A DNA stretch of 64,000 nucleotides from Shewanella violacea DSS12 (lineage in GTDB: Bacteria; Pseudomonadota; Gammaproteobacteria; Enterobacterales; Shewanellaceae). The stretch lies in assembly GCF_000091325.1 (NCBI RefSeq), contig NC_014012.1:186001-250000 (forward strand). The letters run 5' to 3'. Each line of letters opens with the position of its first letter. Position 1 is the first letter of the stretch. The notes under the pieces were generated by a model that was given only the letters and a program-made list of their open reading frames with translations, searched no databases and was not told where the DNA came from. Both the position numbers and the translations under genes were made by a program. Below, piece after piece: positions 22,392 through 40,276 of the stretch.

Positions 22392-23432
22392 TTAACTTGC
22401 CTTACTATTTTCTGTCTTCAGCAGGAATAGCAGTTTTTGCGGGATCCTATCCAGATGCATCTGCTCGTGGTGGGCGTTCAGTTCTACCGCGGCTCCAGGC
22501 ATGCCCCATACTACCGAGCTGGCCTCATCTTGGGCGATAGTGTAGGCGCCCCTGTTTTTCAGATTCAGTAGGCCTTTGACACCATCTTTACCCATGCCGG
22601 TAAGAATTATGCCTATGGTGGATTTGGCCGCTGATTCGGCGACACTGTTAAATAGCACATCCACCGAAGGCTTATGGCGGTTCACGGGATCGCTGTCTAC
22701 CAGTTTGGTGAAGAGTAAGCCGCCTCTACGTTCTATTATCATGTGCTTGTTGCCGGGAGCCAGGTAGGCGGTTCCTTGTCTGAGTCGTTCTCCTCCCCGA
22801 GCCTCTATCACTTTCATCACGCAATTGTTGTCTAGACGCCTAGCAAATGAGGCGCTAAATGCCGCTGGAATATGCTGAGCTATCACCACAGGTGGTGTGT
22901 TCGAGGGCATTTGCCTTAGCACACTCTGGATCGCTTCGGTGCCGCCGGTTGAGGCCCCTATGGCTATGAGTCTATTAGTGAACATCTCCCCATTGAGTGG
23001 TTTCGTTATCGAAGCGGATAGGGATCTGGGACGAGCCTTGCTCTTGTAGGCGAGATGAACCTTGTCTATGAGTTCCTGCTTATATTCCATAAGTTGGTGG
23101 GTGAGATCGGCCTTAGGTTTAGAGATAAAATCCACAGCCCCGATCGAGAGGGCCTCTAAGGTAATCGCAGCCCCCTTGGCTGTCAGGGTCGACACCATAA
23201 CCACAGGCATAGGCCTGAGTTTCATGATATTTCTGAGGAAGGCAATGCCGTCCATCTTAGGCATCTCTATATCTAAGGTGAGTACATCTGGATTTAACTT
23301 CTTGATTAGATCGCGCGCTTCATAGGGATCTTCTGCGGTGGCGACGACCTTGATATCGTCGGCACTGTTTAGCAGATGGCTAAGCAATTGCCTTACTAAT
23401 GGTGAGTCGTCTATCACTAACACGCTAATCAT
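22392..23432 (-). CDS. cheB: Chemotaxis response regulator protein-glutamate methylesterase CheB
   Basis: A 346-residue enzyme that removes methyl groups from (and deamidates) chemoreceptors when phosphorylated by CheA. The receiver domain starts MISVLVIDDSPLVRQLL, with the phosphorylated Asp54 in LTLDIEMPKMDG. The methylesterase domain has the catalytic Ser in IAIGASTGGTEAI, His in VIAQHIPAAFS and Asp in ILTGMGKDGVKGL. The start at 23432 has AAGGA seven bases upstream; the nine extra codons above it are unlikely to be translated. It is the last gene of the seven-gene chemosensory operon, 72 bases after cheR. Confidence 0.95.
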   Translation of the reverse strand: MISVLVIDDSPLVRQLLSHLLNSADDIKVVATAEDPYEARDLIKKLNPDVLTLDIEMPKMDGIAFLRNIMKLRPMPVVMVSTLTAKGAAITLEALSIGAVDFISKPKADLTHQLMEYKQELIDKVHLAYKSKARPRSLSASITKPLNGEMFTNRLIAIGASTGGTEAIQSVLRQMPSNTPPVVIAQHIPAAFSASFARRLDNNCVMKVIEARGGERLRQGTAYLAPGNKHMIIERRGGLLFTKLVDSDPVNRHKPSVDVLFNSVAESAAKSTIGIILTGMGKDGVKGLLNLKNRGAYTIAQDEASSVVWGMPGAAVELNAHHEQMHLDRIPQKLLFLLKTENSKAS

Positions 23433-23504
23433 AGTTTCATCCTTGTGGTCTATCTGCATCCTGGCTTCGACTAATGGCTAAAGCCATAAACTTGCTTGTT
23501 GTTT

Positions 23505-24371
23505 CTAGCCGATAACTGCTTTTTTTCTCTCACCAATAACCTTGGCGTGACCGCCTCGCAGTGGCTGATATATGGTTTGACCTATAAGCTCGAATTCATC
23601 AGATAAATTTGTCAGAGTTTCTGAGTGCCCGATGAAGAGTAGCCCGTCCGGGGCGAGCAGTTTTCTAAATTTAGCTATGATCTTGGCCTTAGTTTCATTA
23701 TCGAAATAGATGAGCACATTACGGCAAAAAATCACATCGAATGGACCTGTCATAGGCCACTTCTGTAATAAATTTAGCTGCTTGAAGTGGATCTTATTCT
23801 GAATGCTCTGTTTTATCTGGATACCATTTGGTGTGATTTTTATATACTTTTTACGATATCGATCCGCCAGCCCTGTGATGCTGTCCTCGGCATAACAGCC
23901 TTTAGCTGCCTTGCTAAGCACATTAGTATCGAGATCTGTGGCCAGTATTTTTAGATCCCACTCGGACCCGGAAAAATGTTCTGCCAGTGTCATGGCGATA
24001 CTGTAAGGCTCTTCGCCGGTTGAGCAGGCTGAAGACCAGATCCGTAAACGTTTATTACGTCGTCTTCTCCATAGCGGTGTTATCTCTTTATCTAGGTAGT
24101 CGAAATGGTGTTCCTCCCTAAAGAAAGCGGTTAGGTTGGTGGTCAAGGCGTTGACGAAATTCATTAACTCGCCGGGTTCACTCTGTATATGGTCACAATA
24201 TTGGTTAAAGTTATCTAAGCCTAAATGACGCAGGCGTCTACTGAGTCTGGAGTAGACCATATGTTTCTTCCTTTCAGGAAGAACTATCCCCGTCTCTTCA
24301 TAGGCAAGGCTCTGAATGAATTCGAAGTTTTTCTTTGTCATAGAAAATTCTTTTTTGTCTACGAGCTCCAA
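23505..24371 (-). CDS. cheR: Chemotaxis protein methyltransferase CheR
   Basis: A 288-residue SAM-dependent enzyme that methylates glutamates of chemoreceptors. The N-terminal helical part contains RKKHMVYSRLSRRLRHLGL and NALTTNLTAFFREEHHFDYL. The Rossmann core has IWSSACSTGEEPYSIAM (SAM loop), ILATDLDTNVLSKA and FDVIFCRNVLIYFD. Translation probably begins at the TTG at 24371: a near-ideal AAGGAGAT lies nine bases before it, while the ATG ten codons later has only a weak site. It lies directly after the receptor gene, whose C-terminal EWNEF is the kind of pentapeptide CheR binds. Confidence 0.95.
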   Translation of the reverse strand: MELVDKKEFSMTKKNFEFIQSLAYEETGIVLPERKKHMVYSRLSRRLRHLGLDNFNQYCDHIQSEPGELMNFVNALTTNLTAFFREEHHFDYLDKEITPLWRRRRNKRLRIWSSACSTGEEPYSIAMTLAEHFSGSEWDLKILATDLDTNVLSKAAKGCYAEDSITGLADRYRKKYIKITPNGIQIKQSIQNKIHFKQLNLLQKWPMTGPFDVIFCRNVLIYFDNETKAKIIAKFRKLLAPDGLLFIGHSETLTNLSDEFELIGQTIYQPLRGGHAKVIGERKKAVIG

Positions 24372-24492: not shown

Positions 24493-27400
24493 TTAAAACT
24501 CGTTCCACTCCTCTTTGCTTATGCTGAGGTTGCCGTGGGTGTCTCCCGAGACTAAGGCCAGTGGCGCGGATGCCATCCCAGAGCTGGTATTGCCACTGGT
24601 TTGGAAGAAGCCAAGCTGAGTCTTCATATTCCTAGCTTGGTCTGCCATGGCTTCACCTGCTGCCGATACTTGCTCTACCAGCGCAGCGTTCTGTTGGGTC
24701 ATCTCATCCATCTGGGAGATAGCCTTGTTGACTTCTTGGATGCCGGAAGACTGCTGATCTGAGGCGATACTTATCTGGCTTATCATGTCGGCGACTTTCG
24801 TTACCGCTTGTACGATATCTTCCAGGGTTTCACCTGACTGGTTCACTAGCTGAGTGCCATCGGTCACCTTGCCCACACTATCGCGAATAAGCTCCTTGAT
24901 CTCCTTGGCGGCGCCGGCACTTCGTTGAGCAAGATTACGCACCTCGCCAGCAACTACCGCAAAACCGCGTCCCTGCTCGCCCGCTCTTGCTGCCTCTACG
25001 GCGGCGTTAAGTGCGAGTAGGTTGGTCTGGAAGGCTATCTCGTCGATAACCCCGATAATATCGGAGATCCGCTTGCTCGAATCGTTGATGGCTTCCATGG
25101 CTGAGACGGCCTGCTCGACCACCTTACCGCCATGTTCGGCCTTGGAGTTGGCTTCCTGGGCCAATTCATTTGCCAGGGTGGCATTTTGAGCACTCTGGGT
25201 TACCGTCGCTGTCATCTGCTCCATGCTAGAGGCCGTTTCTTCCAGAGATGCGGCTTGCTCCTCGGTTCGTTGACTCAAGTCTGCGTTACCCTGAGCTATC
25301 TCTTCGGCGCCGGAGGTGACTGTGTTGGCCGATTCACTGATGCCGCCTAAGACTTCGGTGAGTCTGGATACCGTAGCATTGGCATCTGTCTGCAGCTTAC
25401 CGAACTGCCCCTCGTACTCGCCATTGATCTGACGGGTCAAATCTCCCTTGGCTAAGCCGTCGAACATGTTGACCACATCCGAGATAACGTTATCTGCGAT
25501 ACCCACTAAGCGGTTTAGGCCGTTAGAGAGGTTGAGGAAGAAGCCATCCTTACCTTCGGTGGAGACTCTATGACTCAAGTCTCCTGCCGCGGCTGACGAG
25601 ATGATGGTGTCGATCTCATGCTCGATGGCAACTTCTGCGGTGCGATCTGTCCATTCGACGACTGTGCCTATGCGATCACCCTTGTCATCCTTGATAGGAT
25701 TAGCCACCACCTTGAAGGTACGCCCACCAATTAATAGCTGGCTCGAGTAAGTGGATGTTAGTCCACCTAGCAGGCCACGCTGATGGGCCGGATTCTTATG
25801 GAAGTCATCGATATTGACGCCAATAAGATTATTAGCATCGAAGTTAGGTAGATCCTTGATGATGTCGGACTGTGCGTTTCTGAACATGTTACCCACGGCA
25901 TTGTTCATATAGATGATGTTAAGATCGGCATCTGCCACCATGGTATTGGCGGAGACATTGTCCAGTGCCTGCTTGATGCGGGCATTTTCTGCCGCTAGCT
26001 GCTGCTCTTCGGCTTCTCTGGCTAACTTATCGGTCAAATCTTGCCACTCGACGACTGTGCCGGTGCGTTCGCCATTATCGAATACTGGGGTGGCGATGAG
26101 ACCGAAGGTGAGGCCAGATACCTCGATGTTGGTCTCGAAGGTTTCCGTGAGCCTATCTAACATGCCACGCTGATGAGCCGGGTTCTTATGGAATATATCG
26201 ATATTACTTCCCATCAAGGTGCGCATATCGAAGCGACTCAGGCTCTGTTTCAGGGTTCTCTCATTCTCGCCAAGCATCTCGTTGAGTGATTCATTGAAAT
26301 AGATGATGTTGTAGTCTGCATCGGCCATCATGACGTTGGCCTTACACACATCCAGTGCCTGCTTGATACGGCCTGTCTCGGCGGCTTGCTGCTTCTCCTC
26401 TTTCTCTCTGGCTAACTTAGCGGTGACATCTTGCCACTCAACCACAGTTCCTGTGCGCTGACTATTATCGAATACCGGGGTGGCTATAAGCTCGAAGGTG
26501 AGTCCGGAGACTTGTATGCTGGTTGAATAGGTTTCCGTAAGCTTGTCTAACATGCCTCTTTGGTGAGCCGGGTTCTTATGGAAAATATCGATATTGCTGC
26601 CCATCAGGGTCCTCATATCAAACTTTTTCAGGCTCTGTTTTAGGGTCTTCTCATTCTCGCTGAGCATCTCGTTGAGAGAGTCATTGAAGTAGATGATCTT
26701 GTAGTCTGCATCGGCCATCATGACGTTAGCTTTACAGACATCCAATGCTTGCTTGATACGGTTGGTATCGGCTGCCAGTTCCTGCTCCTCTTTTTCTTTG
26801 ACAAGCTTAGCCGTGACATCTTGCCATTCGACTACAGTACCAGTTCGCTGACCCTTATCGAAAACCGGGGTGGCGATAAGTTCGAAGGTGAGTCCCGAGA
26901 TTTGTATGCTGGTCTCGTAGGTGCTGGTTAGCTTGTCTAGCATGCCGCGCTGATGAGCCGGGTTCTTATGGAAGATATCGATATTGGCACCCAATAGTGT
27001 CTTCATATCGAAGCTTCTAAGCTCCTGCTGTAGCGTCTTCTCGTTCTCGGTGAGCATCTCGGTGAGTGAGTCATTGAAATAGATGATCTCGTAGTCCGCA
27101 TCGGCCATCATGACGTTAGCCTTACATACGTCCAGTGCTTGCTTGATACGGCTAGTATCGGCGGCCTGCTTAGCTTCCTCTTTCTCTTTTGCTAGCTTAG
27201 CCGTGATATCTTGCCACTCTACAACGGTACCTGTACGTACACCGTTATCGAATACCGGGGTGGCGATAAGGTCGAAAGTGAGTCCCGAGACTTCTATGCT
27301 GGTGGCGTAAGTACTGGTGAGCTTGTCTAGCATGCCACGCTGGTGAGCCGGGTTCTTGTGGAAAATATCTATATTAGTGCCCATTAGGGTCTTCATATCG

Positions 27401-28254
27401 AATTTAGCCAGACTCTGTTGCAGGGTGCGCTCGTTCTCGCTGAGCATCTCATTGAGTGATTCATTGAGGTAGATGATGTTGTAATCGGCATCGGCCATCA
27501 TGACATTGGCCTTACATACGTCCAGAGCTTGCTTGATACGACCAGTATCGGCGGCTTGCTGCTTCTCTTCGGCTTCACGGGCAAGTTTAGCCGTAATGTC
27601 CTGCCATTCGACGACGGTTCCGGTACGAACACCATTATTGAAAATAGGATTGGCGATTAGATTAAAGTGGAGGCCTGCAACTTGGATGGTGGTTTCATAG
27701 GTGGTGGTTAACCCGTCTATCATGCGTCTCTGGTGCGCCGGGTTCTTATGAAATATATCGATATTCTGTCCGACCAGCTTTTTCACATCGAAGCCAGTGA
27801 GTTCGGTCTGTAGCGTTTTCTCATTCTTGGTCATCATGACGTTGACCGCGTCATTGAGGTAGGTGATATTGTGATCCGCATCGGCCATCATGACGTTGGC
27901 GTTACAGATATCCAATGCCTTCAGGGCCGTCTCGTCGCGCTGACGCTTCTGATATAACTCATCTATTCGGCTAGTAAGCAGTTCCCAGCCTGGCAAAAAT
28001 AAGTCTGAAAATTTAGGCGCTTCATTGCTGATTAAGGCATTACTGACTTCGGTTAATGCTTGTTCAAACATCTTATGCCAGCGGTTGAACTTGATGACGC
28101 CAGCGGCTATAAGTATTATCGCAAGAATTTGGGTTGCTGCAACCCAGCTTCCTGCCTGTCCTGCAAATGATAACCCTAATGCAACTATGCTGACCACCAA
28201 TCCGGCTACTGGTAAGCTGTTCACATTTGATAGGTTGGAGTTTTGTGCTTCCAT
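24493..28254 (-). CDS. Methyl-accepting chemotaxis protein with six tandem PAS domains
   Basis: A 1253-residue receptor. Two close membrane segments (about 12-30 and 36-53) leave almost no periplasmic loop, so sensing is cytoplasmic. Six PAS repeats of 130 residues follow, from about 104 to 885; each keeps ANVMMADAD, a [11 protein letters not shown] block (His near 170, 300, 430, 560, 690 and 820) and GTVVEW. These blocks resemble Aer2-type haem PAS domains, where a His and a Trp at these places handle haem and oxygen (my inference). Then come HAMP segments and the signalling hairpin [20 protein letters not shown]. The C-terminus is EWNEF, like the NWETF tether for CheR/CheB. DNA repeats are 390 bp. 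It is fifth in the chemosensory operon, between cheW and cheR. Confidence 0.93.
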
Positions 28255-28277: not shown

Positions 28278-28853
28278 TTACGCATTAACCACTTGCTGCT
28301 GGGGAGCATCAAGCGTATTGATTAAGTTAGAGAGTTGCTCAGCTTCGGGTAAGACTTCGCTACCGAGTAACATGTTGATATCGAGCAAGATCACCATTTT
28401 ATCGCTGGCATTAGTTAAGCCTTTGATGAAAGAGAGATCTGTGCCTTCACCGAAATTTGGGGCGTCACGTACATCGTCATTATTGACGCTGAATACATCG
28501 GATACTGCATCGACGACTATACCTATGACCTTATGTTCGTTAGCTATGGCTACCTTGACCACGATAACTACAGTTGTAGCACCATAATCTAAGACTTCGA
28601 TGCCGAAGCGTTGGCGGAGATCTATGATGGGCACTATGGTCCCCCGAAGGTTAATTACTCCCTTAACATGGCTAGGTGCATTGGGGATCACTGTGGTGGA
28701 CTCCCAGCCTCGGATCTCCTGTACCGATAATATTTCGACTCCGTACTCTTCGTTGGCCATGATGAAGGTTAGGTACTGTTGACTGTCTTCATCGTTATCT
28801 TGCTTCATCCCATGATCGTGCTGGGGTGGTTCATTTTGAATTTGCTCTGTCAT
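28278..28853 (-). CDS. cheW: Chemotaxis coupling protein CheW
   Basis: A 191-residue adaptor linking receptors to CheA. A short acidic, Gln/His-rich leader (about 35 residues) precedes the CheW fold: [21 protein letters not shown], then [23 protein letters not shown] with the conserved receptor-binding region, and [15 protein letters not shown] at 28853 has GGAG nine bases upstream; an ATG five codons earlier would have its ribosome site too close. The gene lies 24 bases before the receptor start, while a 57-bp tandem repeat fills the space up to cheA. Confidence 0.94.
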
Positions 28854-28894
28854 CTCGTCAGGCTCCATCTTCCTTAATCTGTTATTTTCAGCGC

Positions 28895-29035: not shown

Positions 29036-31144
29036 TTAGGCTGCGTGTTCTTTAATATTGGTAATGCCAGCCATGCTCACTAATCCGGTAACATCTATGA
29101 TGAGTGCAACCGTGCCATCACCCAAGATAGTGGCACCAGATACGCCAGGAACCCGGTTGTAGTTGTCCTCCAGGCTCTTGATTACCACCTGTTGTTGTGA
29201 CAAGAGTTCATCCACCAATAAACCTATTTTCTCGTTATTGGAGTCGACAACCATGACCAGGCCGTCTTTGATCTCTTTGGCATCTGAAGTATGACGAAAC
29301 TCTTGGTACACCTTGATCACAGGTAGGTATTCGTTTCTTAGCTGTATCAGTTCGTGTCCGTCGCTGAGGCGATTGATCTTGTTTGGCTCGACCTGTAATG
29401 ATTCATGAATGGAAACCAGAGGCACGACATAGATATGCTTGCCCACTCTGACTAGTTGTCCATCGAGTATGGCGAGTGTTAGAGGTAACCTAATGGTAAA
29501 ACGGCTGCCCTTATCTTGGATGGATTTAAGCTCTATGGTGCCGTTAAGATCATTGATGTTTCGTCTGACCACATCCATGCCCACGCCGCGTCCCGAGAGG
29601 TCTGAGACCGCATCAGCGGTGGAGAATCCGGGCTTGAAGATCAACTTATGAATAGCCTCTGTGCTGAGTTCTTCCTCCTGACCGACCAGTCCCTTTTCCC
29701 TGGCTTTACGAAGAATTCTATCGGTATCCAGACCGGCTCCGTCGTCTATTATTTCTATGATGATGCTGCCGCCCTGATGAAAGGCGTTGAGAGTGATGGT
29801 GCCGACTTCTGATTTACCTTTGGCGAGGCGTTCTGCTGGTGTTTCTAAGCCATGATCCAATGAGTTACGCACCAGATGTACCATGGGGTCGACGATCTTC
29901 TCCATCACAGTCTTGTCTAGTTCGGTATCTTCCCCTTTCAATACTAGATTCACTTTCTTGCCTAGTTGCTGACCTATATCGCGAACTAGTCTAGGGAATC
30001 GATTGAAGGCGAAGCTGATGGGGAGCATACGGATCTGCATGACACTCTCTTGCAGATCCCGGGTGTGGGTGGCGAGTTGTTCCAGTCCTTGTTTGAGGGC
30101 TATGAGTGATTCTTCATCTATCTCATCCTGTTGGCCTATTTGTCCAAGCATGGCTTGGGTAATAACCAGTTCTCCCACCATGTTTATCAGCAGATCTATC
30201 TTGTCGATGCTGACACGAATCGAGCTGGTCTCGGGGGTTTTAGCCTGTGAGACCGCCTTAGGTTTAGATCCTTGGCTAGATGCCTTGGTTTCGTCGACTC
30301 GATTGCTTTCTACATTAGCCTGAACGGCTTCGCTCGCAGATTCTTGAGAGAGATCTTGACCGCTTGGCGCTATAGTCGAGACTTCATTATCTAGTTCGGT
30401 ATTCTCATTCATGATTGGGGTAGAGGAGTAACTTATGCTGCACTCATCTTCGACCCATTCAAATACCTCATGGAGCCGTTCTAAGGGCTGGTCTGTAATC
30501 AGCTCAAGTTGCCAATTGAGGTAACAGGCTTCTGGATCTATATCAGTAAACTCAGGTGATGAGTGTTCGGCCAAATTGACGCTTAGATCTCCCAACTGAC
30601 TGAGTTCGTTGAACATGAGGTAAGGATCGTTACCACATCGGAGAATATCGACACCGGCTTGGAAATCTATAATCCAACGATGTAGGCCTAGGCTTTCTTC
30701 TTCTGTTGATGTGTCGCTACTAGAGTCAGGCTCTTTTGGGGCTGAGTCCTGAGTGCCTTTGTCGATCTCGATATTAAACTGCTCCTCGAGTTGAGCGAGC
30801 TGGGGATCGTCGAAATCTATTTTGCGCATCAAGGCATCGAACATGTTTCGTAGCAGGTCGACGGATAGCAGCAGCATTTCTTGATGTTCGCTGGTCATCT
30901 GTCTACGACCGTCGCGGATCTCATCAAGCAAGGTTTCTAGCAGATGAGTGTAATTAGCGACTTGACTGAAACCGAAAGTGGCACTGCCTCCCTTAATGGA
31001 GTGAGCCGCACGGAAAATGGTGTTAATAGCTTCATCGTCGGGGCTAGTGACGTCTAGGTTTAGCAGCTCTGACTCCATGGCGTCTAAGCCTTCTAGACTC
31101 TCCTCGAAGAATACTTGACTGAATTGACTGAGATCGATTTCCAT
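29036..31144 (-). CDS. cheA: Chemotaxis histidine kinase CheA
   Basis: A 702-residue cytoplasmic kinase that phosphorylates CheY and CheB. The P1 Hpt domain holds the phospho-acceptor His48 in FRAAHSIKGGSATFGF. A P2-like region and an acidic, Ser-rich linker (about 130-300) follow; then the P3 dimerisation helices (SIRVSIDKIDLLINMVGELV), the P4 ATPase domain (LVRNSLDHGLE, IEIIDDGAGLD, GRGVGMDVV) and the P5 CheW-like domain (LAILDGQLVRVG to the end). All catalytic motifs are intact. It lies 40 bases after cheY and is the third gene of the operon. Confidence 0.96.
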   Translation of the reverse strand: MEIDLSQFSQVFFEESLEGLDAMESELLNLDVTSPDDEAINTIFRAAHSIKGGSATFGFSQVANYTHLLETLLDEIRDGRRQMTSEHQEMLLLSVDLLRNMFDALMRKIDFDDPQLAQLEEQFNIEIDKGTQDSAPKEPDSSSDTSTEEESLGLHRWIIDFQAGVDILRCGNDPYLMFNELSQLGDLSVNLAEHSSPEFTDIDPEACYLNWQLELITDQPLERLHEVFEWVEDECSISYSSTPIMNENTELDNEVSTIAPSGQDLSQESASEAVQANVESNRVDETKASSQGSKPKAVSQAKTPETSSIRVSIDKIDLLINMVGELVITQAMLGQIGQQDEIDEESLIALKQGLEQLATHTRDLQESVMQIRMLPISFAFNRFPRLVRDIGQQLGKKVNLVLKGEDTELDKTVMEKIVDPMVHLVRNSLDHGLETPAERLAKGKSEVGTITLNAFHQGGSIIIEIIDDGAGLDTDRILRKAREKGLVGQEEELSTEAIHKLIFKPGFSTADAVSDLSGRGVGMDVVRRNINDLNGTIELKSIQDKGSRFTIRLPLTLAILDGQLVRVGKHIYVVPLVSIHESLQVEPNKINRLSDGHELIQLRNEYLPVIKVYQEFRHTSDAKEIKDGLVMVVDSNNEKIGLLVDELLSQQQVVIKSLEDNYNRVPGVSGATILGDGTVALIIDVTGLVSMAGITNIKEHAA

Positions 31145-31184: not shown

Positions 31185-31547
31185 TTAACCAAGCACCTTA
31201 CGCACGGTTGCAAGTAACTGATCCGGGTTGAAGGGCTTAACTATCCAGCCGGTAGCACCTGCGGAGCGACCCTCTTGCTTCTTTTCTGTACCCGACTCAG
31301 TTGTCAGCATCAATAGGGGGGTAAATTTATAGTTTGGTAAGGTGCGTAGATTACGAATTAGGGTGAGGCCATCCATGATGGGCATATTCACATCTGAGAT
31401 AACTAGATCGTATTCGCCTTGTTGGGCTACTTTTAGGGCTTCGTCTCCATTACAGGCCTCTGTTACGTCGAATCCAGCCGTTTTTAGGGTGAAACAGACC
31501 ATCTGACGCATGGAAGCCGAATCATCGACCGCGAGTATTTTTTTCAT
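31185..31547 (-). CDS. cheY: Chemotaxis response regulator CheY
   Basis: A 120-residue single-domain receiver. The acidic pocket is AVDDSASMRQMV, the phosphorylation site Asp52 lies in LVISDVNMPIMDGL, the Thr is in PLLMLTTESG and the switch lysine in GWIVKPFNPDQLL. The GATGW sequence before the lysine is typical of CheY-like regulators of accessory chemosensory systems rather than the flagellar CheY. Its start overlaps the stop of the STAS gene by four bases (ATGA), so the two are coupled. Whether it acts on the flagellar motor cannot be told from sequence. Confidence 0.94.
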   Translation of the reverse strand: MKKILAVDDSASMRQMVCFTLKTAGFDVTEACNGDEALKVAQQGEYDLVISDVNMPIMDGLTLIRNLRTLPNYKFTPLLMLTTESGTEKKQEGRSAGATGWIVKPFNPDQLLATVRKVLG

Positions 31548-32253: not shown

Positions 32254-32946
32254 CTAGCTCCTAGGAGCTGGCTTATAATTGGCGATTATGGTTTGAATAT
32301 CAGTAATCAAGTGCTTGTTTAAGATCTGTGGCAGCTTCCCAGGAGCCGAGGACTTAGGCTTTATTATGGCTACTTTACTACCATCGGGTGATATCAGTGC
32401 CATAGATGCACTGTGGTCTACTTGATAGTCTTCTCCATCGCCGACCATGGCATAGACGAATCCTAGATCTCGAGTGAGTGGGAAGAGTTGCCCATGGCCT
32501 CCTGTGATGGCGATAAATTCAGGGTTGAAGAAGTTCATATAGCTGAATAGCTTAGCTCGAGTGTCTCTCTGAGGGTCCACGGAGAGGAAAACCACTTGTA
32601 GATCGGCATTTTCTAGCAATTTGGGGTAAGCGGCGGTGAGTTTACCCATGGTAGTTGGGCAGACATCCGGGCAAGAGGTATAGCCTATAAAGAATAGGCT
32701 CCATTTATTGTTTAGCTGGCTATTGGTAAAGGCATTGCCATCTTGATCCGTGAGAGAGAAAGGGGCCAAAGGTTTTGCTATTGGAAACACGAAGCTAGTG
32801 GCAAGATCCAATTCAGTGTCCTGCATTGAAGTGATTATTGCATTGGTCTGCTTGCTCTTTTGCTGCTGAACTGAGATCACACCTCCGAGGCCGAGTAGGA
32901 CTAAACCTAGCAGGGCGACGGCGATTATCCTAAACGTCTTTGCCAT
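32254..32946 (-). CDS. SCO1/SenC family copper chaperone for cytochrome oxidase
   Basis: A 230-residue membrane-anchored thioredoxin-fold protein that helps deliver copper to the CuA site of oxidase subunit II. A single membrane anchor lies at about 6-24 (IIAVALLGLVLLGLGGVISV). The copper ligands are the CxxxC in FIGYTSCPDVCPTTMGKL and the histidine in DYQVDHSASMALI. ATG at 32946 has GGAGA seven bases upstream and was preferred over an in-frame TTG and ATG just before it. It is the last gene of the surf1-ctaA-ctaB assembly cluster, 67 bases after ctaB. Confidence 0.93.
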   Translation of the reverse strand: MAKTFRIIAVALLGLVLLGLGGVISVQQQKSKQTNAIITSMQDTELDLATSFVFPIAKPLAPFSLTDQDGNAFTNSQLNNKWSLFFIGYTSCPDVCPTTMGKLTAAYPKLLENADLQVVFLSVDPQRDTRAKLFSYMNFFNPEFIAITGGHGQLFPLTRDLGFVYAMVGDGEDYQVDHSASMALISPDGSKVAIIKPKSSAPGKLPQILNKHLITDIQTIIANYKPAPRS

Positions 32947-33013
32947 ATCTGATATCTCCATTTTCAAGGTGTGATCTGCATAAAATCAAGGGATTTATTT
33001 AATAATCCCAGAC

Positions 33014-33928
33014 CTATACCCAGAGATAGTGATCCACCAAGAGCACAATAAATAAGATCATCAGATGATAGATGGAGAAGCGAAAAACCTGCATTGCCAG
33101 TCCAGGCTTGTCATCATATTTAAGCTCCCATGCCTTATAGATGAAGCCGCAGCTTAATATTGTCGAACCCACCAGATAGATGGGACCGCACATTCCCACG
33201 ATAACGGGCAGTAAGCAGGCGATAGCAAGCAGCAAGGTATAGAGCAAGATACAGGTCTTAGTGAACTCGACGCCATGGGTCACTGGCAGCATAGGGATAT
33301 CGACCTTGGCGTATTCCGCTCTCCTGTGAATGGCCAGAGCCCAGAAGTGTGGTGGGGTCCAGGTGAAGATGATGATCACTAATAGCAGCGCATGGCCGTG
33401 AAACTCTCCGGTTATGGCTGTCCAGCCAAGGAGTGGTGGCATGGCTCCCGCGAGTCCTCCGACTACGATATTTTGTGGCGTGGCACGCTTGAGGTATGTG
33501 GTATAGATGATGGCATATCCCACGAGACTGGCAAAGGTGAGCCAGGCGGTGAGCTCATTGACTAAGGTGTAGAGCAAGGCGAAGCCTAAAAGAGCTAGGC
33601 TAAAGGAGAAGATGAGAGCCTTAGTGATAGAGATGCGCCCCTTGGGCAGGGGGCGATTATAGGTACGGGCCATCAGGCCGTCTATGCGTCGATCGATTAG
33701 GTGGTTAAAAGCTGCTGCAGCACCGGCCATCATACCTATACCTAGCATGCCAATAATTAAGGGCTGTAGAGGCACAGAGCCTGGCACCGCCAGACACATA
33801 CCGACTAAAACCGTGAGTAACATGAGTGCGACCACCTTAGGCTTGGTCATCTCATAATATGCGCGCCACTGAAGCGATTCGTTATGGGTCTTAGGTTCAG
33901 TTGCTGAAATTGAAAGTGGTTTTGCCAT
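33014..33928 (-). CDS. cyoE: Protoheme IX farnesyltransferase (haem O synthase)
   Basis: A 304-residue polytopic UbiA-family prenyltransferase that adds farnesyl to haem B to make haem O, the precursor of haem A. The Asp-rich prenyl-PP motif is [20 protein letters not shown]; the second conserved part is [20 protein letters not shown]. About eight to nine hydrophobic segments are present. GAGGG lies upstream of the ATG. It sits between ctaA and the SCO gene, so it serves the aa3-type oxidase of this locus and would be called ctaB in that setting. Confidence 0.95.
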
Positions 33929-33996
33929 GGCTTTTCCCTCGCTGAGGCTTTACGCCCTTAAAATTATTATGCTTGTCGTGTCTTATGGCTTGTTAT

Positions 33997-34980
33997 TTAG
34001 GCTTTTCGCCACAGGGCGTAGTTGATAAACACTAATGTCAGTAGCAAGATGGCTGCTCCGCCATTGTGAGAAACGGCTATGCCCAAGGGCAAGTGCAAGA
34101 CTACATTGCTGATCCCCAGTGCTACTTGCAGTACGACTAAACCGGTCAAGACCAGTGATGCTCGCTTCAACAGTGCCGACTGAGACTGAGTAAAAAGCTT
34201 ATAGGCCAGCCAGAGCAAGATACCTGTGGTCAATATCGCGCCAAATCTATGGGCAACATGTATGGTCATACGTGAATAATAGTCGAGTACGCCAAATTCA
34301 TAGGTCTCGTGGGTGCCTTGAAACGGATTAAAGGCCTGAGCCGGCTGTAAATTCTGATACCAGTTGCCTTCGCAGATAGGCAGTGAAGTACAGGCTAGGG
34401 CCGCATAGTTTGATGAGGTCCAGCCGCCGAGTATGATCTGTAAAATTAAGACCCCCATGCCTGTTAAGGCTAATGGTGCCAGTCTTCTAGCGACAAAGTC
34501 TCCTCCAGGGATCCTCAGTGGCTTAGTCCTGAGATAGAGTAGGAGTAACAGGGAAATTAAGGCGAAGCCGCCGATGAGATGAGACATGACCACAATCGGC
34601 ATGAGCTTCATGGTGACTGTCCACATCCCTAATGCGGCTTGAAATAGGATCAAGATGGCGATGAATGTCGGTAGCTTCTTGGGGGCATCTAGCTTTTTTA
34701 AACAAAGAATGAAGATAATCAGCACCAGTAATCCCAGGGCTCCGGCGATATATCTGTGGATCATCTCTAACCAAGCTTTCTTGGGCTCAACTTCCTGTCC
34801 AGGGAAGGCGTCCTGTGCCTGCATCAGTTCACTGTGTTGGCTGGGGACCTTCATCATGCCATAGCAACCGGGCCAATCGGGACAACCTAGGCCTGCATCG
34901 GATAATCGGGTATATGCCCCCATTAAAATGACGCAGAGAGTGAAGACAAGGGTGACTCTGAGTAGGTTTTGAATCCCCAT
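33997..34980 (-). CDS. ctaA: Haem A synthase CtaA (COX15)
   Basis: A 327-residue inner-membrane enzyme that oxidises the C8 methyl of haem O to give haem A. It has about eight membrane segments. The N-terminus reads GAYTRLSDAGLGCPDWPGCYG, with the paired Cys loop typical of the family; conserved haem-ligand histidines are in EMIHRYIAGALG, VVMSHLIGGFALI, HVAHRFGAIL and AVSHNGGAAI. The start codon overlaps the stop of the preceding CxxxC gene by one base (TGATG), so translation is coupled. Its presence shows the oxidase uses haem A. Confidence 0.94.
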   Translation of the reverse strand: MGIQNLLRVTLVFTLCVILMGAYTRLSDAGLGCPDWPGCYGMMKVPSQHSELMQAQDAFPGQEVEPKKAWLEMIHRYIAGALGLLVLIIFILCLKKLDAPKKLPTFIAILILFQAALGMWTVTMKLMPIVVMSHLIGGFALISLLLLLYLRTKPLRIPGGDFVARRLAPLALTGMGVLILQIILGGWTSSNYAALACTSLPICEGNWYQNLQPAQAFNPFQGTHETYEFGVLDYYSRMTIHVAHRFGAILTTGILLWLAYKLFTQSQSALLKRASLVLTGLVVLQVALGISNVVLHLPLGIAVSHNGGAAILLLTLVFINYALWRKA

Positions 34981-35525
34981 CAGCCAAGTCTCGACAGTTT
35001 CAGCATCTTTCTTAAGTCTGCGACCAGTGATTTCCCCTGCATGATCTGCTTGTCTATGCCGTTAACCGCAGGATATTCCATGACCAGACTGCCTAGTGGA
35101 TCTACGACTATCATCTGCTGGCGATCCAGCATTTTAATCATGGCGTCATTGGCCTTAGCCGTCTCGAAGCTATATGAAGCAAGAGCATGGGTATCGCTAT
35201 CTTGGCTCAGTAAAATTAAGGTGTGAACTCTGTCTTGATCCCGGCCAAGGGCGATATGGCTCTGTTGCAGAATATAGAGATGATCTTGGCATTGCTGGTC
35301 ACACTTGTTTGGCAGTAGGTAGAGGAGTTGCCACTCTCTAGGCTTAGGATTGTCCATCTTAAGGCTCAGGTAGCTAGTGCCGACAGGGAGTAGTTTTCCC
35401 TTGTTGGTGGCGCCGCCTTGATAGAGATCTAAGCTGAGCACGATTTTAGCCGCAGCCACAGGCAGGACGAAGACTAAGAAAAGTAAGATTAAAGGTTTAG
35501 CGCCGCTCTTTTTGGGGGAGTTCAT
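34980..35525 (-). CDS. Membrane-anchored CxxxC protein of the cytochrome oxidase assembly cluster
   Basis: A 181-residue protein with one N-terminal membrane anchor (about 10-28, LILLFLVFVLPVAAAKIVLS) and a soluble part facing the periplasm. The segment LLYLLPNKCDQQCQDHLYIL has a CxxxC in the place where SCO proteins bind copper, and the rest is compatible with a thioredoxin-like fold. I recall similar proteins beside ctaA in Shewanella and Vibrio being labelled only as cytochrome-oxidase-associated. A copper- or disulfide-handling role in CuA assembly is my inference. TAGGAGAG before ATG 35525 fixes the start; upstream in-frame codons are unlikely to be used. It overlaps ctaA by one base. 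Confidence 0.78.
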   Translation of the reverse strand: MNSPKKSGAKPLILLFLVFVLPVAAAKIVLSLDLYQGGATNKGKLLPVGTSYLSLKMDNPKPREWQLLYLLPNKCDQQCQDHLYILQQSHIALGRDQDRVHTLILLSQDSDTHALASYSFETAKANDAMIKMLDRQQMIVVDPLGSLVMEYPAVNGIDKQIMQGKSLVADLRKMLKLSRLG

Positions 35526-35674
35526 ACTCTCTCCTAAGAAAGCCCATATGAACGCCTGTGTAGGCGAATAAAATTCATATGAGTCATGCTCATCCTGTTT
35601 CCCGAGACGGCTAGGAAACGCATATTTGTTTGTCACTTCTTATGGATAGAAGTTTTTACTGCTTAATCTCTAAC

Positions 35675-36511
35675 CTACTTGGTCTTGTTTACATTGGCAA
35701 CTGTCATTGCATCAATATTGGTCCGATGAGGATTATTATTCTTTATCGATTCATCTTGTTGTTTTGTTAGAGTTTTAGATCTCCGACTATAGATGAAATA
35801 TAAAATAAGCAGGGCAAAAGCCAGGGCCATGGAAAACCACTGTAGGGCATAGCCTCTGTGTTTCTGAGATGACAGGGGTATTGGGCTCCAGGGGTGGGGT
35901 AAGTCAATTCCATCGAGGCGATCAGGCTGCAATACCCCAGGAGCTAAAGGCTTGCCCAATAGCTGGCTAATCGCGTCAAGATTAAGGTTTTGGATACGTT
36001 TGGGCCAGCCGGCTTCAGGCATTAATGCCGAGCTCATAGGATTAGCCTGTCTCTGATACAAGCGACCATTCAGGCTGACTTTTGTTGTAATAACATCGAC
36101 ATCAGGCAGTATTCTTCGATCTAACCCCGCAGCAACGAAGCCAAGCTCGACTAATATCCAAGGGCCTTCGGCAGCTATCTGCATGGGCTGCAACGCCAGA
36201 TATCCCACCCTTCCGTTAAAGACCTGGTTATCCAGCAGGAATATTTTACTCATAGCGGGAGATGCCCGTACCGAGAGACGGTAACCTGTGACCTGCTTAG
36301 CAGCGGGGAATGTAAGCAGTTGTGCATATGTGAGCGGTGCAGATGATTGGCGATGGGTCAACTCTGCTTGCCACTGCTCCTTCATCTCTGCACGATCGAG
36401 TTGCCAAAACCCAAGCTTCACTAAGATGAGAAACATAATGACGGAGGCCGTAGCTGATGCTGCTCTGGTGGCCCATAGATATGTGTTTCTGCGCCGAGAG
36501 AGCTTAGCCAT
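35675..36511 (-). CDS. SURF1 family cytochrome oxidase assembly protein
   Basis: A 278-residue inner-membrane protein with membrane segments near the N-terminus (about 17-33, ASATASVIMFLILVKLGFW) and near residue 230 (FSMALAFALLILYFIY), with a periplasmic domain between. Family signatures are LGFWQLDRAEMKEQ, VFNGRVGYLALQPM and LVELGFVAAGLDRR. SURF1 proteins help insert haem A into subunit I. The C-terminus has about 45 polar residues after the last membrane segment. The start ATG has AGGTGAG upstream and overlaps the stop of a duplicated mini-ORF by one base. It is the first gene of the surf1-CxxxC-ctaA-cyoE-SCO unit. Confidence 0.9.
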   Translation of the reverse strand: MAKLSRRRNTYLWATRAASATASVIMFLILVKLGFWQLDRAEMKEQWQAELTHRQSSAPLTYAQLLTFPAAKQVTGYRLSVRASPAMSKIFLLDNQVFNGRVGYLALQPMQIAAEGPWILVELGFVAAGLDRRILPDVDVITTKVSLNGRLYQRQANPMSSALMPEAGWPKRIQNLNLDAISQLLGKPLAPGVLQPDRLDGIDLPHPWSPIPLSSQKHRGYALQWFSMALAFALLILYFIYSRRSKTLTKQQDESIKNNNPHRTNIDAMTVANVNKTK

Positions 36512-36657
36512 TATTTTCTCACCTGTGTTTTCTGACGATATCTAAGATGCAAAAAACCTGACTCGGCTAAGATGATAAACATAGCTAGTGAGCAGATAGC
36601 TGATGCTGCTCTGGTGGCCCATAGATATGTGTTTCTGCGCCGAGAGAGGCTAGTCAT
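36511..36657 (-). CDS. 48-codon mini-ORF derived from the SURF1 start, coupled to SURF1
   Basis: This open frame is a duplicate of the SURF1 beginning: its first residues MTSLSRRRNTYLWATRAASA match MAKLSRRRNTYLWATRAASA of SURF1, then it diverges, keeping a hydrophobic stretch (ICSLAMFIIL). It has its own AAGTGAG site, and its TAA stop overlaps the SURF1 ATG by one base (TAATG). It may make a small membrane peptide, or act only as a leader whose translation delivers ribosomes to SURF1. It could also be a decaying pseudogene; I cannot tell which. Confidence 0.5.
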   Translation of the reverse strand: MTSLSRRRNTYLWATRAASAICSLAMFIILAESGFLHLRYRQKTQVRK

Positions 36658-36730
36658 TATTTTCTCACTTGTGTTTTCTGATGATATCTAAGATGCAAAA
36701 AACCTGACTCGGCTAAGATAAGACACCTAG

Positions 36731-36790
36731 CTAGCGAGCACATAGCTTGGCCCATAAATATGTGTTTCTGCGTCGAGAGAGGCTAGTCAT
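36731..36790 (-). pseudogene. Truncated third copy of the SURF1 N-terminus
   Basis: Beginning at ATG 36790 with an AGGAGAG site, it encodes MTSLSRRRNTYLWAKLCAR and then stops at TAG. The first 14 residues are the SURF1-like ones; a deletion has shifted the frame. Further upstream, to about 36900 in reverse, a fourth copy of the membrane-segment part can be traced (LELFIHLVKLGF compared with IMFLILVKLGF). Confidence 0.6.
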
Positions 36791-36921
36791 TATTTTCTCT
36801 CCTGTGTTTTCTGATGACACCTAAGTTGCAAAAACCTAACTTGACCAAATGGATAAACAGCTCCAGAGTAGCAATAGCCAACAAGGCCCTAGAGCCACAT
36901 GACTCAATGTGAGGATAACCG

Positions 36922-37140
36922 ATGAATCTATTAATTATCTTTAAAATCGTCTTAGTACTGCTACTGCTGTTCATTATGTTTAATCTGGCCCGAGCCCTGT
37001 TTATCTTGGTGAAAGGTGAGAGTGAGACGCCTGCGAGTCATTTCCTGGGACGCCGGGTCATCTTTTCTGTGCTGGTGGTCTTGTTCATCTTGGTGGCATT
37101 GGGCTCAGGGGTGATCACCCCAAACCCAAGACCTTACTAA
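36922..37140 (+). CDS. DUF2909 family twin-transmembrane small protein
   Basis: A 72-residue membrane protein with two hydrophobic segments (residues about 3-24 and 46-66) joined by a polar loop with GESETPASHFLGRRV. Proteins of this family lie opposite to cytochrome oxidase genes in many gammaproteobacteria, as here between coxC and SURF1, but their function is not known; a role in oxidase assembly or stability is plausible. GAGGAT precedes the ATG by five bases. It is transcribed against its neighbours, so it splits the minus-strand cluster into a structural unit and an assembly unit. Confidence 0.82.
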   Translation: MNLLIIFKIVLVLLLLFIMFNLARALFILVKGESETPASHFLGRRVIFSVLVVLFILVALGSGVITPNPRPY

Positions 37141-37194
37141 CTAGGTGATCTCGACAATAAAATCGGACGCAATGCCAATATTCTATGACCTAGA

Positions 37195-38070
37195 TCAGAG
37201 GACGTAGACGAAGATAAATAAACACAACCAAACTACGTCGACAAAGTGCCAGTACCAACTTCCCGCCTGGAAGGCAAAATGCTTATCTGGGGTAAAGTGT
37301 CCCTTCAAGACTCGCATAAACAACACGATCAGGAATACTGTTCCTAGGGTAACGTGCATACCGTGGAAGCCAGTTAAGAGGAAGAAAGTATTACCGTAAA
37401 CACCAGAAGCCAAGGTTAATCCCATCTCCTGATAGGCGTGAATATACTCTTCGACTTGTAAGGTCAGGAAACTCATGCCCAGTAAGATGGTGATACCCAG
37501 CCAAACCGTGATTGCCGAGCGTTTACCTTTCTCCAGGCTCACGTGAGCCATATGCAGAGTCACAGATGATGTGAGGAGGATTATAGTGTTATACAGGGGC
37601 AAGCCAGTCCAAGGCATGGCCTCAGTTTTTGTGCCATCGGGTGTGGTTAATAATGGCCAGATGGCTTCAAACCCAGGCCAGAGAACTTCATTGGTCATGG
37701 CATTATTAGAATCGCCACCTAGCCAAGGCACGGCAATCATTCTGGCGTAAAGCAAGGCACCAAAAAATGCACCGAAGAACATCACCTCCGAGAAGATAAA
37801 CCAGCTCATTCCTTGGCGAAAAGATCTGTCCATCTGCTTTGAATAGAGGCCGCTCATCGATTCGGCTATAACGGTTCTAAACCAGCCAAAGATCATAAAT
37901 ATAATGACGGCTACACCTGTGAGTAAGATTATTCCGCCACTGCCGCCACCGGTTTTGAGTTGTTGTACATAACTACCGGCGCCAAATGCGATAAGGAATA
38001 ATCCTACCGCCCCTATGATGGGCCACGCACTCTGTGCGGGAACGTAATAGTGTTCGTGCTTAGTTGTCAT
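37195..38070 (-). CDS. ctaE: Cytochrome c oxidase subunit III
   Basis: A 291-residue polytopic protein with seven hydrophobic segments, the third core subunit of the haem-copper oxidase. Family blocks are FRQGMSWFIFSEVMFFGAFF, VTLHMAHVSLEKG, VYGNTFFLLTGFHGMHVTLG and the C-terminal SWYWHFVDVVWLCLFIFVYV. AGGAGCAGCAAG precedes the ATG. The start overlaps the Cox11 gene by four bases, so the two are coupled. Confidence 0.96.
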   Translation of the reverse strand: MTTKHEHYYVPAQSAWPIIGAVGLFLIAFGAGSYVQQLKTGGGSGGIILLTGVAVIIFMIFGWFRTVIAESMSGLYSKQMDRSFRQGMSWFIFSEVMFFGAFFGALLYARMIAVPWLGGDSNNAMTNEVLWPGFEAIWPLLTTPDGTKTEAMPWTGLPLYNTIILLTSSVTLHMAHVSLEKGKRSAITVWLGITILLGMSFLTLQVEEYIHAYQEMGLTLASGVYGNTFFLLTGFHGMHVTLGTVFLIVLFMRVLKGHFTPDKHFAFQAGSWYWHFVDVVWLCLFIFVYVL

Positions 38071-38636
38071 CTTGCTGCTCCTTGCTCAACAGAGCCGACA
38101 TAACCACGGTCGGTGATGTTGTAGAGGGTGTAAGAGAGAGTTAATGTTTTTATGGAATCGGGAAGATCCGGATCCACGAAGAAAATAAGTGGCAGCTCGG
38201 CGCTTTCTTTGGCCATTAGTCTCTGCTGGTTGAAGCAGAAACACTCGGTTTTATTGAAGTAAGCGGCTCCCTGTCCAGGTGAGACCGAAGGGATGGCCTG
38301 GCCAATGGTATCCTTTAGAGACAGGTTTTTCGCAGTGAAATTAGTGCGAATTAGCTCTCCGGGGTGCACCTGCATACGTTTGACTTCAGGCTTAAATTCC
38401 CAGGGCATATCACTTTGGATCTGCGCCATAAATTCTATGGTAATGGTTCGATTCTTATCGATTGTGATTGGCTTGTAAGTGCTGGCGCTGTTCTGGGTTT
38501 TGCCATTGATGCCCAACTGCTCACAAAGCACATCGTATAAGGGCACCAAGGCGAAGCCGAAGCCGAACATGCCCACGGCACCAGCAATCAGCATGCCGAT
38601 GAGTTTTCGATTAGACTTGCCCTGGTTATTGCTCAT
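38067..38636 (-). CDS. ctaG: Cytochrome c oxidase assembly protein CtaG/Cox11
   Basis: A 189-residue copper chaperone that inserts CuB into subunit I. One N-terminal membrane anchor (about 13-33, IAGAVGMFGFGFALVPLYDV) leads to an immunoglobulin-like periplasmic domain. The copper-binding CxC lies in YFNKTECFCFNQQRL and the family motif ELPLIFFVDPDLP follows. The gene starts two bases after the subunit I stop and overlaps subunit III by four bases. Confidence 0.95.
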   Translation of the reverse strand: MSNNQGKSNRKLIGMLIAGAVGMFGFGFALVPLYDVLCEQLGINGKTQNSASTYKPITIDKNRTITIEFMAQIQSDMPWEFKPEVKRMQVHPGELIRTNFTAKNLSLKDTIGQAIPSVSPGQGAAYFNKTECFCFNQQRLMAKESAELPLIFFVDPDLPDSIKTLTLSYTLYNITDRGYVGSVEQGAAR

Positions 38637-38638
38637 AT

Positions 38639-40267
38639 CTACTTTATCTCGGGTGGTGTAGTAAATGAGTGATAGGGAGCCGGACTAGGCAGTGTCCATT
38701 CCAAACCTTCGGCGCCTTCCCAAGGTTTCGCCGCCGCTTTTTCGCCACCGCGTATACACTTGATGACCAGCGCTAGGAAGATAAACTGAGACAGTCCGAA
38801 GGCGAAACCGCCTATGGAGACTATCTGGTTAACATCGGCAAATTGCACCGCATAATCTGGTATACGCCTTGGCATACCTGCTAAGCCTAAGAAATGCATA
38901 GGGAAGAAGAGTACATTGACCGATATTACCGAACACCAGAAATGTATCTTGCCTAACCTCTCGTCATACATGTTGCCGGTCCATTTAGGCAGCCAGTAAT
39001 AGGCGGCAGCCATGATGGAGAAGATGGCGCCTGTCACCAGCACGTAGTGGAAATGTGCCACCACGAAATACGTATCATGGTATTGGAAGTCTGCCGGGGT
39101 GATGGCAAGCATCAGGCCCGAGAAGCCACCTATGGTGAAGAGTATGATGAAGGCGATAGCAAACAGCATGGGGGTCTCGAAGGTGAGGGAGCCTCGCCAC
39201 ATGGTTGCCACCCAGTTGAACACTTTCACCCCGGTGGGCACCGCGATCAACATGGTGCAATACATGAAGAATAGCTCGGCGAATACCGGCATACCTGTGG
39301 TGAACATGTGGTGTGCCCATACAAGAAACGACAGGATTGCTATGCTCGAGGTGGCGTAAACCATAGAGGAATAACCAAATAGTCTCTTACGGCTGAACGT
39401 TGGCACTATGGCCGAGATGATACCGAAAGAGGGTAAGATCATGATGTAAACTTCGGGATGACCGAAGAACCAGAAGATATGCTGGAACATCACAGGGTCG
39501 CCGCCACCCGCGGCATCGAAGAAGCTGGTGCCGAAGTATTTATCTGTTAGCACCATGGTCACAGTGCCAGCCAGTACCGGCATCACGGCAATTAACAGGA
39601 AAGCGGTGATCAACCAGGTCCAGACAAAAAGTGGCAACTTCATCCATGTCATACCCGGAGCGCGCATGTTCACTATGGTGACGATCACGTTGATCGCTCC
39701 CATGATGGAGCTAATCCCCATGATATGGATAGAGAAGACAAATAGCGCCGTGCTGTCGGGGCTGTAAGTGGTCGACAGTGGTGCGTAGAAGGTCCAGCCA
39801 AAGTTAGGTCCACCACCTTCCATAAACAGCGAGCTCAGCAGGATGGCGAAGGCAAAGGGTAAGATCCAAAAACTCCAGTTGTTCATTCTGGGTAGCGCCA
39901 TGTCCGGCGCGCCTATCATCATAGGTATCAGCCAGTTTGCCAGGCCAGTGAAGGCTGGCATAACGGCGCCAAACACCATGATCAGTCCGTGGACTGTGGT
40001 CATCTGATTAAAAAAGTTTGGTTCTACCAGCTGTAATCCTGGTTGAAATAGCTCGGCGCGTATCACCATAGCCATGGCCCCACCGGTGAGGAACATGATA
40101 AAACTGAACCAGAGGTAGAGTGTGCCTATGTCTTTGTGGTTGGTAGTGAACAGCCAACGTTTAATCCCCGAGGGGTGCTGTTGATGATGCTCATCTTGGT
40201 GATCCTTGGTCTCTTCGACCTGACCAACTTCCATATTGGGTTCCGCATCGCGGGTTAAAGTATTCAT
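38639..40267 (-). CDS. ctaD: Cytochrome c oxidase subunit I
   Basis: The 542-residue catalytic subunit with about 12 membrane segments, binding haem a, haem a3 and CuB. Visible signatures: FNQMTTVHGLIMVFGAVMP with a low-spin haem ligand histidine; FWFFGHPEVYIMILPSFGII with the His-Glu-Val-Tyr of the CuB ligand and cross-linked tyrosine; VWAHHMFTTGM with two CuB ligands; and YHDTYFVVAHFHYVLVTGA with the other haem ligands. The E of HPEVYI is the type A K/D-pathway glutamate region. AGGGAGG precedes the ATG. It follows subunit II by nine bases. Confidence 0.97.
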   Translation of the reverse strand: MNTLTRDAEPNMEVGQVEETKDHQDEHHQQHPSGIKRWLFTTNHKDIGTLYLWFSFIMFLTGGAMAMVIRAELFQPGLQLVEPNFFNQMTTVHGLIMVFGAVMPAFTGLANWLIPMMIGAPDMALPRMNNWSFWILPFAFAILLSSLFMEGGGPNFGWTFYAPLSTTYSPDSTALFVFSIHIMGISSIMGAINVIVTIVNMRAPGMTWMKLPLFVWTWLITAFLLIAVMPVLAGTVTMVLTDKYFGTSFFDAAGGGDPVMFQHIFWFFGHPEVYIMILPSFGIISAIVPTFSRKRLFGYSSMVYATSSIAILSFLVWAHHMFTTGMPVFAELFFMYCTMLIAVPTGVKVFNWVATMWRGSLTFETPMLFAIAFIILFTIGGFSGLMLAITPADFQYHDTYFVVAHFHYVLVTGAIFSIMAAAYYWLPKWTGNMYDERLGKIHFWCSVISVNVLFFPMHFLGLAGMPRRIPDYAVQFADVNQIVSIGGFAFGLSQFIFLALVIKCIRGGEKAAAKPWEGAEGLEWTLPSPAPYHSFTTPPEIK

Positions 40268-40276
40268 ATTGCCTCC

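Follow-up and report, generated by a model that had tools for sequence, protein, structure and literature searches.

A Shewanella violacea Aer2-type chemoreceptor with six probable haem-PAS domains, part of a copy-number series beside cytochrome c oxidase genes

We analyzed a 64,000-nucleotide stretch of the Shewanella violacea DSS12 genome (contig NC_014012.1, positions 186,001 to 250,000 of the forward strand; hereafter the window, in whose own numbering coordinates are given), in which the open reading frame (ORF) at 24493..28254 on the minus strand, an aer2-like receptor gene, encodes a chemoreceptor of the known Aer2 family with six probable haem domains of the PAS type. The gene has an ATG start, with GAGGA seven bases 5' of it, and specifies 1253 amino acids; the receptor parts, che genes and oxidase genes described below lie on the same minus strand. 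The assignment as an Aer2-type receptor of the 36H class is well supported; the protein starts with a membrane hairpin and ends in a CheR tether, and its gene lies in a dedicated cheYAWRB cluster. We read the protein as a multi-haem O2 receptor in which the HAMP-proximal PAS6 would provide the output and PAS1 to PAS5 would modulate or space PAS6, with a probability of about 0.75. Its value lies less in the number six than in the copy-number series found at this fixed locus and in the linkage to oxidase genes.

Results

The six PAS units

Comparison of the receptor gene with itself revealed a DNA self-repeat with a strict 390-bp period. In the protein, the motif FHKNPAHQR occurs six times at 130-residue spacing (starting at residues 168, 298, 428, 558, 688, and 818), and VVEW also occurs six times (residues 214, 344, 474, 604, 734, and 865), exactly as an earlier note on this DNA had claimed. 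The same note called the PAS domains near-identical, which holds for units 2 to 5 (78-86% amino-acid identity) but not for unit 1 (58-63% identity to units 2-5) or unit 6 (38-46% to all others). Unit 1 (27583..27972; residues 95-224, His169, Trp217) is the membrane-proximal cap and is position-specific between close species. The middle units 2 (27193..27582; residues 225-354, His299, Trp347) and 3 (26803..27192; residues 355-484, His429, Trp477) are mosaic, and in the middle unit 4 (26413..26802; residues 485-614, His559, Trp607) the mosaic signal is not significant. Unit 5 (26023..26412; residues 615-744, His689, Trp737) is the penultimate unit and is specific to its position in the four closest of the relatives compared, and the HAMP-proximal unit 6 (25633..26022; residues 745-874, His819, Trp868) is the proposed output unit.

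Pairwise comparison of units 2 to 5 gave 0.10-0.14 nonsynonymous (dN) and 0.80-1.24 synonymous (dS) changes per site, with dN/dS of 0.08-0.16. These copies are old and evolve under purifying selection; with about one synonymous change per site among them, a very recent origin by copying of a single unit was rejected. The six-unit array is no chance pattern, because the 390-bp register is strict, dN/dS between units is low, and orthologs are present in many genomes.

Position and conservation of the putative haem residues

The motif region of unit 4 aligned without gaps to the Pseudomonas aeruginosa Aer2 PAS structures 4hi4 and 3vol, with the motif His at the position of H234. Trp347 aligns with position 283 of the Aer2 structure chain, since model residue 351 lies opposite chain residue 287 and the C-terminal alignment is gap-free, and the Trp is present in 6/6 units; W283 is, we take it, the number of the O2-stabilizing Trp on strand I-beta of Aer2. 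H234 is the haem ligand of that protein (PMC13401364). By alignment and structure model, the first His of the motif thus corresponds to the haem ligand and the Trp to the O2-stabilizing residue of P. aeruginosa Aer2. The earlier note had supposed that every PAS domain keeps its putative haem residues and had proposed alignment and structural comparison with the Aer2 PAS domain; the comparison places the His at the haem-ligand position, and all six units retain it.

Among Shewanella receptors, the ligand His is found in 185/186 units, the sole exception being a Tyr in PAS1 of L030 (G105), which reads FYRNPEHQR and represents a natural loss of the ligand. One other unit reads FHKNLAHQR. The Trp is present in 186/186 units by pattern (185 and one gap in the tree alignment), and the second His of the motif is invariant, a partly circular result in that the units were located by the motif pattern. 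A wider set of 200 related proteins, collected through their similarity either to this receptor or to the long relative P0010, provided 755 units after two short fragments were left out; His is kept in 738/755 and Trp in 755/755, rates that probably set an upper limit for the family, given how the set was collected. Trp ranks first and His sixth in conservation among 112 alignment columns. His losses are concentrated in the first PAS (13/198), with 3/357 in middle units (two Asn, one gap) and 1/200 in the last PAS (first PAS versus the rest, Fisher p=1.7e-5); the middle units keep His in 354/357 and Trp in 357/357.

Copy number among relatives

To place the six units among orthologs, a survey suggested by the earlier note, 129 genomes of the genus were searched, and one receptor was taken from each of the 61 matching genomes; as five candidates were scored per genome among the rows shown, the 68 genomes without a match do not prove absence. 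One PAS was found in two receptors, two in 19, three in 26, four in five, five in seven, six in one (the window), and seven in one. The 43 membrane-type receptors have at least two PAS domains, and two to seven are found at the same locus. Receptor lengths in the window's own group are 863, 993, 1123, 1253, and 1383 residues, exact steps of 130.

We mapped copy number, counted by the Trp-motif pattern, onto a CheA tree covering 33 loci with 31 distinct sequences (9 of 28 branches unresolved), where it requires 12 changes. For L056 this pattern counts three units and the profile four. In this tree, the six loci nearest to that of the window have 7, 5, 5, 5, 3, and 2 PAS domains. A separate search gave at least 79 named loci; the 79 listed included 68 with a qualifying ORF (82 ORFs, one to five PAS) and 11 without one. 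In G093 and G100 there are, beyond the oxidase-linked receptor, further matches with ORFs of 941-974 amino acids, some shorter.

The 200 related proteins contain 1-12 units of the haem-PAS type. They come from a first search, in which 7989 candidates were scored and the best 120 of 1089 used, and a second, in which 120 of 123 were used, 80 of them new; since candidate length was limited in both, longer receptors may exist. P0010 (2031 amino acids), from a metagenome-assembled genome of Kordiimonadales, has 12 units and P0014 (1820 amino acids) has 10. Six as a record number was rejected, with relatives having 7, 8, 10, and 12 units.

Constant ends and a variable middle

Units 1, 5, and 6 match their positional partners in the relatives L002, L003, L004, and L006 along their length, save for a few ties. 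In comparison with L002 and L003, the matching partner of units 2 and 3 changes partway through the unit. In one-breakpoint permutation tests, values at or above the observed one arose in 7/1000 (unit 2) and 18/1000 (unit 3) permutations for L002, and in 7/1000 and 0/1000 for L003. The signal for units 2 and 3 was not significant against L004 or L006 (78-467 of 1000), nor was it for units 1, 4, 5, and 6 against any of the four relatives; of the 24 tests run, the four significant ones gave 18/1000 or fewer and all others at least 78. Against the more distant L009, the position-specificity of the penultimate unit is gone.

A tree of 91 of the 186 units (25 of the 61 receptors, plus two reference domains; 44 of 90 inner branches unresolved) placed the last PAS domains of membrane-type receptors in one group with support 88, which holds 19/19 of them and a single stray middle unit; the middle units of several species grouped by species. 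The ends of the array, cap PAS1 and the last PAS, are constant and the middle variable: between close species, each outer unit remains recognizable as itself, and the middle units shuffle.

Membrane hairpin and N terminus

The receptor N terminus has two hydrophobic segments (windows from residues 8 and 33) joined by a loop of a few residues, in agreement with the earlier remark that there is hardly any periplasmic part. The structure model has helices at residues 13-30 and 35-75, from which we predict hairpin helix 1 at 28165..28218 (residues 13-30) and the hydrophobic part of helix 2 at 28096..28152 (about residues 35-53). P0001 (1192 amino acids), a database entry for the product of this gene, starts at residue 62 and therefore lacks the hairpin; the starts of close orthologs agree with the 1253-residue ORF, unlike P0001. 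Across the 61 Shewanella receptors, 40 have the hairpin (2-7 PAS), 18 have no hydrophobic segment (1-3 PAS), and three have a longer periplasmic N terminus (2-4 PAS). In these last three, L005, L008, and L014, the longer N terminus stands in place of the hairpin and has its hydrophobic segments around residues 7 and 180. Their first PAS clusters with the middle units, and the change amounts to a sensor swap at the outer end of the array.

HAMP, signaling domain, and C-terminal tail

Pfam HAMP_2 matches residues 906-963 (25366..25539) and Pfam MCPsignal residues 1030-1186 (24697..25167), the latter of 36H length. Between the last PAS and the MCP domain, Pfam detects one HAMP and the structure model has the helices of two. 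The PAS-HAMP structure 3vol aligned across residues 756-968, which places the PAS in line with the HAMP, followed by the MCP domain. From HAMP to tip, the receptor aligned with Escherichia coli Tsr without gaps across 295 residues and is therefore a 36H receptor. The genome has 21 methyl-accepting chemotaxis proteins (MCPs). Each of the 19 others compared, a set that left out one further MCP (242121-242564), needed insertions to align; in most, each arm is longer by about 14 residues, as in 40H receptors, and L167, L172, and L178 fit the 40H pattern less cleanly. Because it is the only 36H receptor among the MCPs compared, in a genome with two CheA matches, it is probably alone in the chemoreceptor array built on this cluster.

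The C-terminal pentapeptide EWNEF (24496..24510) fits the CheR-tether pattern x-[HFYW]-x2-[HFYW]. A tether pentapeptide ends 61/61 Shewanella receptors, and among the genome's other MCPs the bare pattern also fits the end of one, L169.

The che cluster and the cytochrome c oxidase genes

The receptor gene lies within the order cheY-cheA-cheW-receptor-cheR-cheB, formed with cheY (31185..31547, a single receiver domain named from position and family), cheA (29036..31144), cheW (28278..28868), cheR (23505..24371), and cheB (22392..23459). The cluster is a candidate for the F7 chemosensory class, where Aer2-type receptors belong; by reading, neither cheD nor mcpA was seen among its ORFs. The conserved neighbor of the cluster is a set of cytochrome c oxidase genes at 32254..41398, adjacent to it, so that the nearness to an oxidase locus pointed out in the earlier note proved correct. 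CtaC, CtaD, CtaA, SCO, and a UbiA-family protein taken as CtaB were identified by family search, and CtaG, CtaE, and SURF1 were named by reading.

Oxidase genes lie upstream of cheY on the same strand in 20/20 membrane-type Shewanella loci, the window included, and are adjacent in 4/4 further loci of this type (24/24 in all). None were found in the five soluble-type Shewanella loci (0/5) within the 20 kb taken. Among the 79 loci listed, at least two oxidase genes occur in nine, comprising three Shewanella (two from the same genomes as in the membrane-type set) and all six Pseudoalteromonas loci; the other 70 do not reach two. The link suggests, without proving, a functional connection between che cluster and oxidase. 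Also often kept near the cluster are dinF and a polysaccharide deacetylase gene, named by reading, and long-lived gene order therefore contributes to the linkage.

The che cluster and oxidase genes together form one island between lexA and dinF (window 19929-42995). In Pseudoalteromonas, the che-oxidase order is kept, often with dinF too. In L038 (G095), about 9.4 kb separate the SCO gene from cheY, versus 260-911 bp in the 32 other loci of the CheA tree. An Rfam search of window positions 16000-42000 gave no match; a plasmid search gave eight records with short matching parts, confined to the ctaD stretch in the five listed.

Discussion

Proposed mechanism and alternatives

We propose that the receptor would be held at the inner membrane by its short hairpin and would feed its own CheA/CheW/CheY system, with adaptation by CheR and CheB. 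O2 would bind b-haem in the PAS units, with the His as ligand and the Trp stabilizing O2, and a change in PAS6 would pass via the HAMP domains to the kinase-control tip. PAS1 to PAS5 may act upstream as modulators and spacers, setting the gain or range of PAS6 and also array height. The number of middle units would change through homologous recombination between the 390-bp repeats, and selection would preserve folding and haem retention in every unit. The cellular output need not be swimming; Che1 of S. oneidensis, the system of Aer2, is not the chemotaxis system (PMC9855816). The earlier interpretation, a multi-haem receptor whose repeat number may tune sensitivity or reach, stands as to Aer2 type and the His and Trp positions; what we infer is that the units bind haem and that copy number tunes the receptor.

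The roles given to PAS6 and to PAS1-5 are drawn by analogy. The anatomy, in which the last PAS and the cap PAS1 stay constant and the middle varies, fits the scheme of Vibrio vulnificus Aer2. Our reading of the PAS units distal from the HAMP leans on the original abstract for that receptor, which reportedly calls PAS1 'dispensable'; this conflicts with the wording of a review. The review terms PAS1 'largely indispensable' and describes three haem-PAS domains of similar O2 affinity, of which PAS2 regulates PAS3 and PAS3 passes the signal onward (PMC13401364).

Several points weigh against the reading of PAS6 as output with modulating upstream units. Haem and O2 binding are predictions for this receptor, and the protein set, collected by similarity to it or to P0010, favors units that keep the motif. 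The predicted template modeling scores (pTM) of 0.43 and 0.51 leave the domain arrangement uncertain. The score against NF041847, the NCBIfam equivalog of Vibrio Aer2, is 972.9 bits, below the curated cut-off of 1200, and that name was not assigned. Free variation in copy number among close relatives makes a precise function of the number doubtful, and the mosaic signal is limited to units 2 and 3 against L002 and L003, falling short of significance against L004 and L006 and for unit 4.

Binding of another cofactor or small molecule in place of haem, to which the predicted status of the haem leaves some room, is very improbable: flavin or other cofactors were dropped given the His and Trp at Aer2 positions, a b-haem spectrum was obtained for the S. 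oneidensis relative (PMC9855816), and a PAS census groups Aer2-type PAS domains in a cluster whose principal haem determinant is this His (PMC10468136). The units might instead serve as a ruler, with units 1 to 5 setting the distance between the membrane and the CheA/CheW layer and only PAS6 needing haem for signaling. The exact 130-residue length steps and the hairpin at the far end of the array suit such a ruler, as do the density layers 24.5 and 30.1 nm above the baseplate in cryo-electron tomography of other Aer2 arrays, which correlate with the first and second PAS from the baseplate (PMC7184735); if stacking is in line, PAS1 of six would lie about 52 nm above it (24.5 + 5 x 5.6 nm). A pure spacer needs neither the His nor the Trp that the middle units keep, unless haem is needed for folding, and the upper layer of the P. 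aeruginosa array matched HAMP rather than PAS (PMC7184735), which together make this explanation unlikely.

Copy number may also drift neutrally by unequal crossing-over between the 390-bp repeats, the units being kept foldable and their number having no function. The 12 changes on the CheA tree, some of whose forks are unresolved, the spread of two to seven among the six closest relatives, and the mosaicism of units 2 and 3 but not of the outer units are what drift would produce. The floor of two PAS in all 43 membrane-type receptors argues against it, and the low dN/dS indicates that the units matter, though not that their number does; on balance we consider drift possible but doubtful. Equally tentative is an extension of the preferred multi-haem reading into an evolvable dial, in which recombination would add or remove middle O2-binding modules between constant ends (hairpin-PAS1 and last PAS-HAMP) beside oxidase genes, the CheA layer of the multi-haem, single-receptor array would be held over 50 nm away from the membrane, and O2 sensitivity or cooperativity would follow module number.

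The role of extra haem-PAS domains in Aer2 receptors is only partly known so far. Two to seven modules at one gene position in one genus, between constant ends, amount to a natural titration of gain, cooperativity, and array height, and since sister species carry these different numbers at the same position, the role of the extra copies is directly testable. The oxidase linkage, present in two bacterial genera, provides a lead on the purpose of the che cluster. The literature searched, which covered few subscription papers, describes Aer2 receptors with one to three PAS domains and showed neither an Aer2-type receptor with more than three nor a che-oxidase neighborhood.

Comparison with known systems

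HM1275 of S. vesiculosa is a different receptor, BdlA-like and of 49 kDa. Up to 19 PAS domains occur in one cyanobacterial protein, but these multi-PAS proteins are histidine kinases rather than chemoreceptors and are not described there as arrays of similar haem-PAS domains (PMC10468136). P. aeruginosa Aer2/McpB resembles the window receptor in that two HAMPs, the second only predicted here, and a 36H domain come after a PAS, and its PAS is 58% identical to the best PAS of our C-terminal model, unit 6; it has a single PAS, and where the window receptor has PAS1-5 and the hairpin it has three N-terminal HAMPs (PMC7184735). Aer2 of V. cholerae and Aer2so of S. oneidensis share the haem-PAS with ligand His and Trp, the 36H class, and a che cluster, but have two PAS domains, and Aer2so is predicted to be cytosolic (PMC9855816, PMC7184735). 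The soluble Shewanella receptors, which we take as the Aer2so type, likewise lack the hairpin and, within 20 kb, the oxidase genes. The Aer2 of Leptospira interrogans, a distant organism, is likened here by description, with several haem-PAS domains (three) and a membrane link, membrane-bound according to a reference title (PMC13401364). A further parallel in layout is V. vulnificus Aer2, in which tandem haem-PAS domains likewise precede the signaling part and the last PAS signals onward, with three PAS domains there versus six here (PMC13401364).
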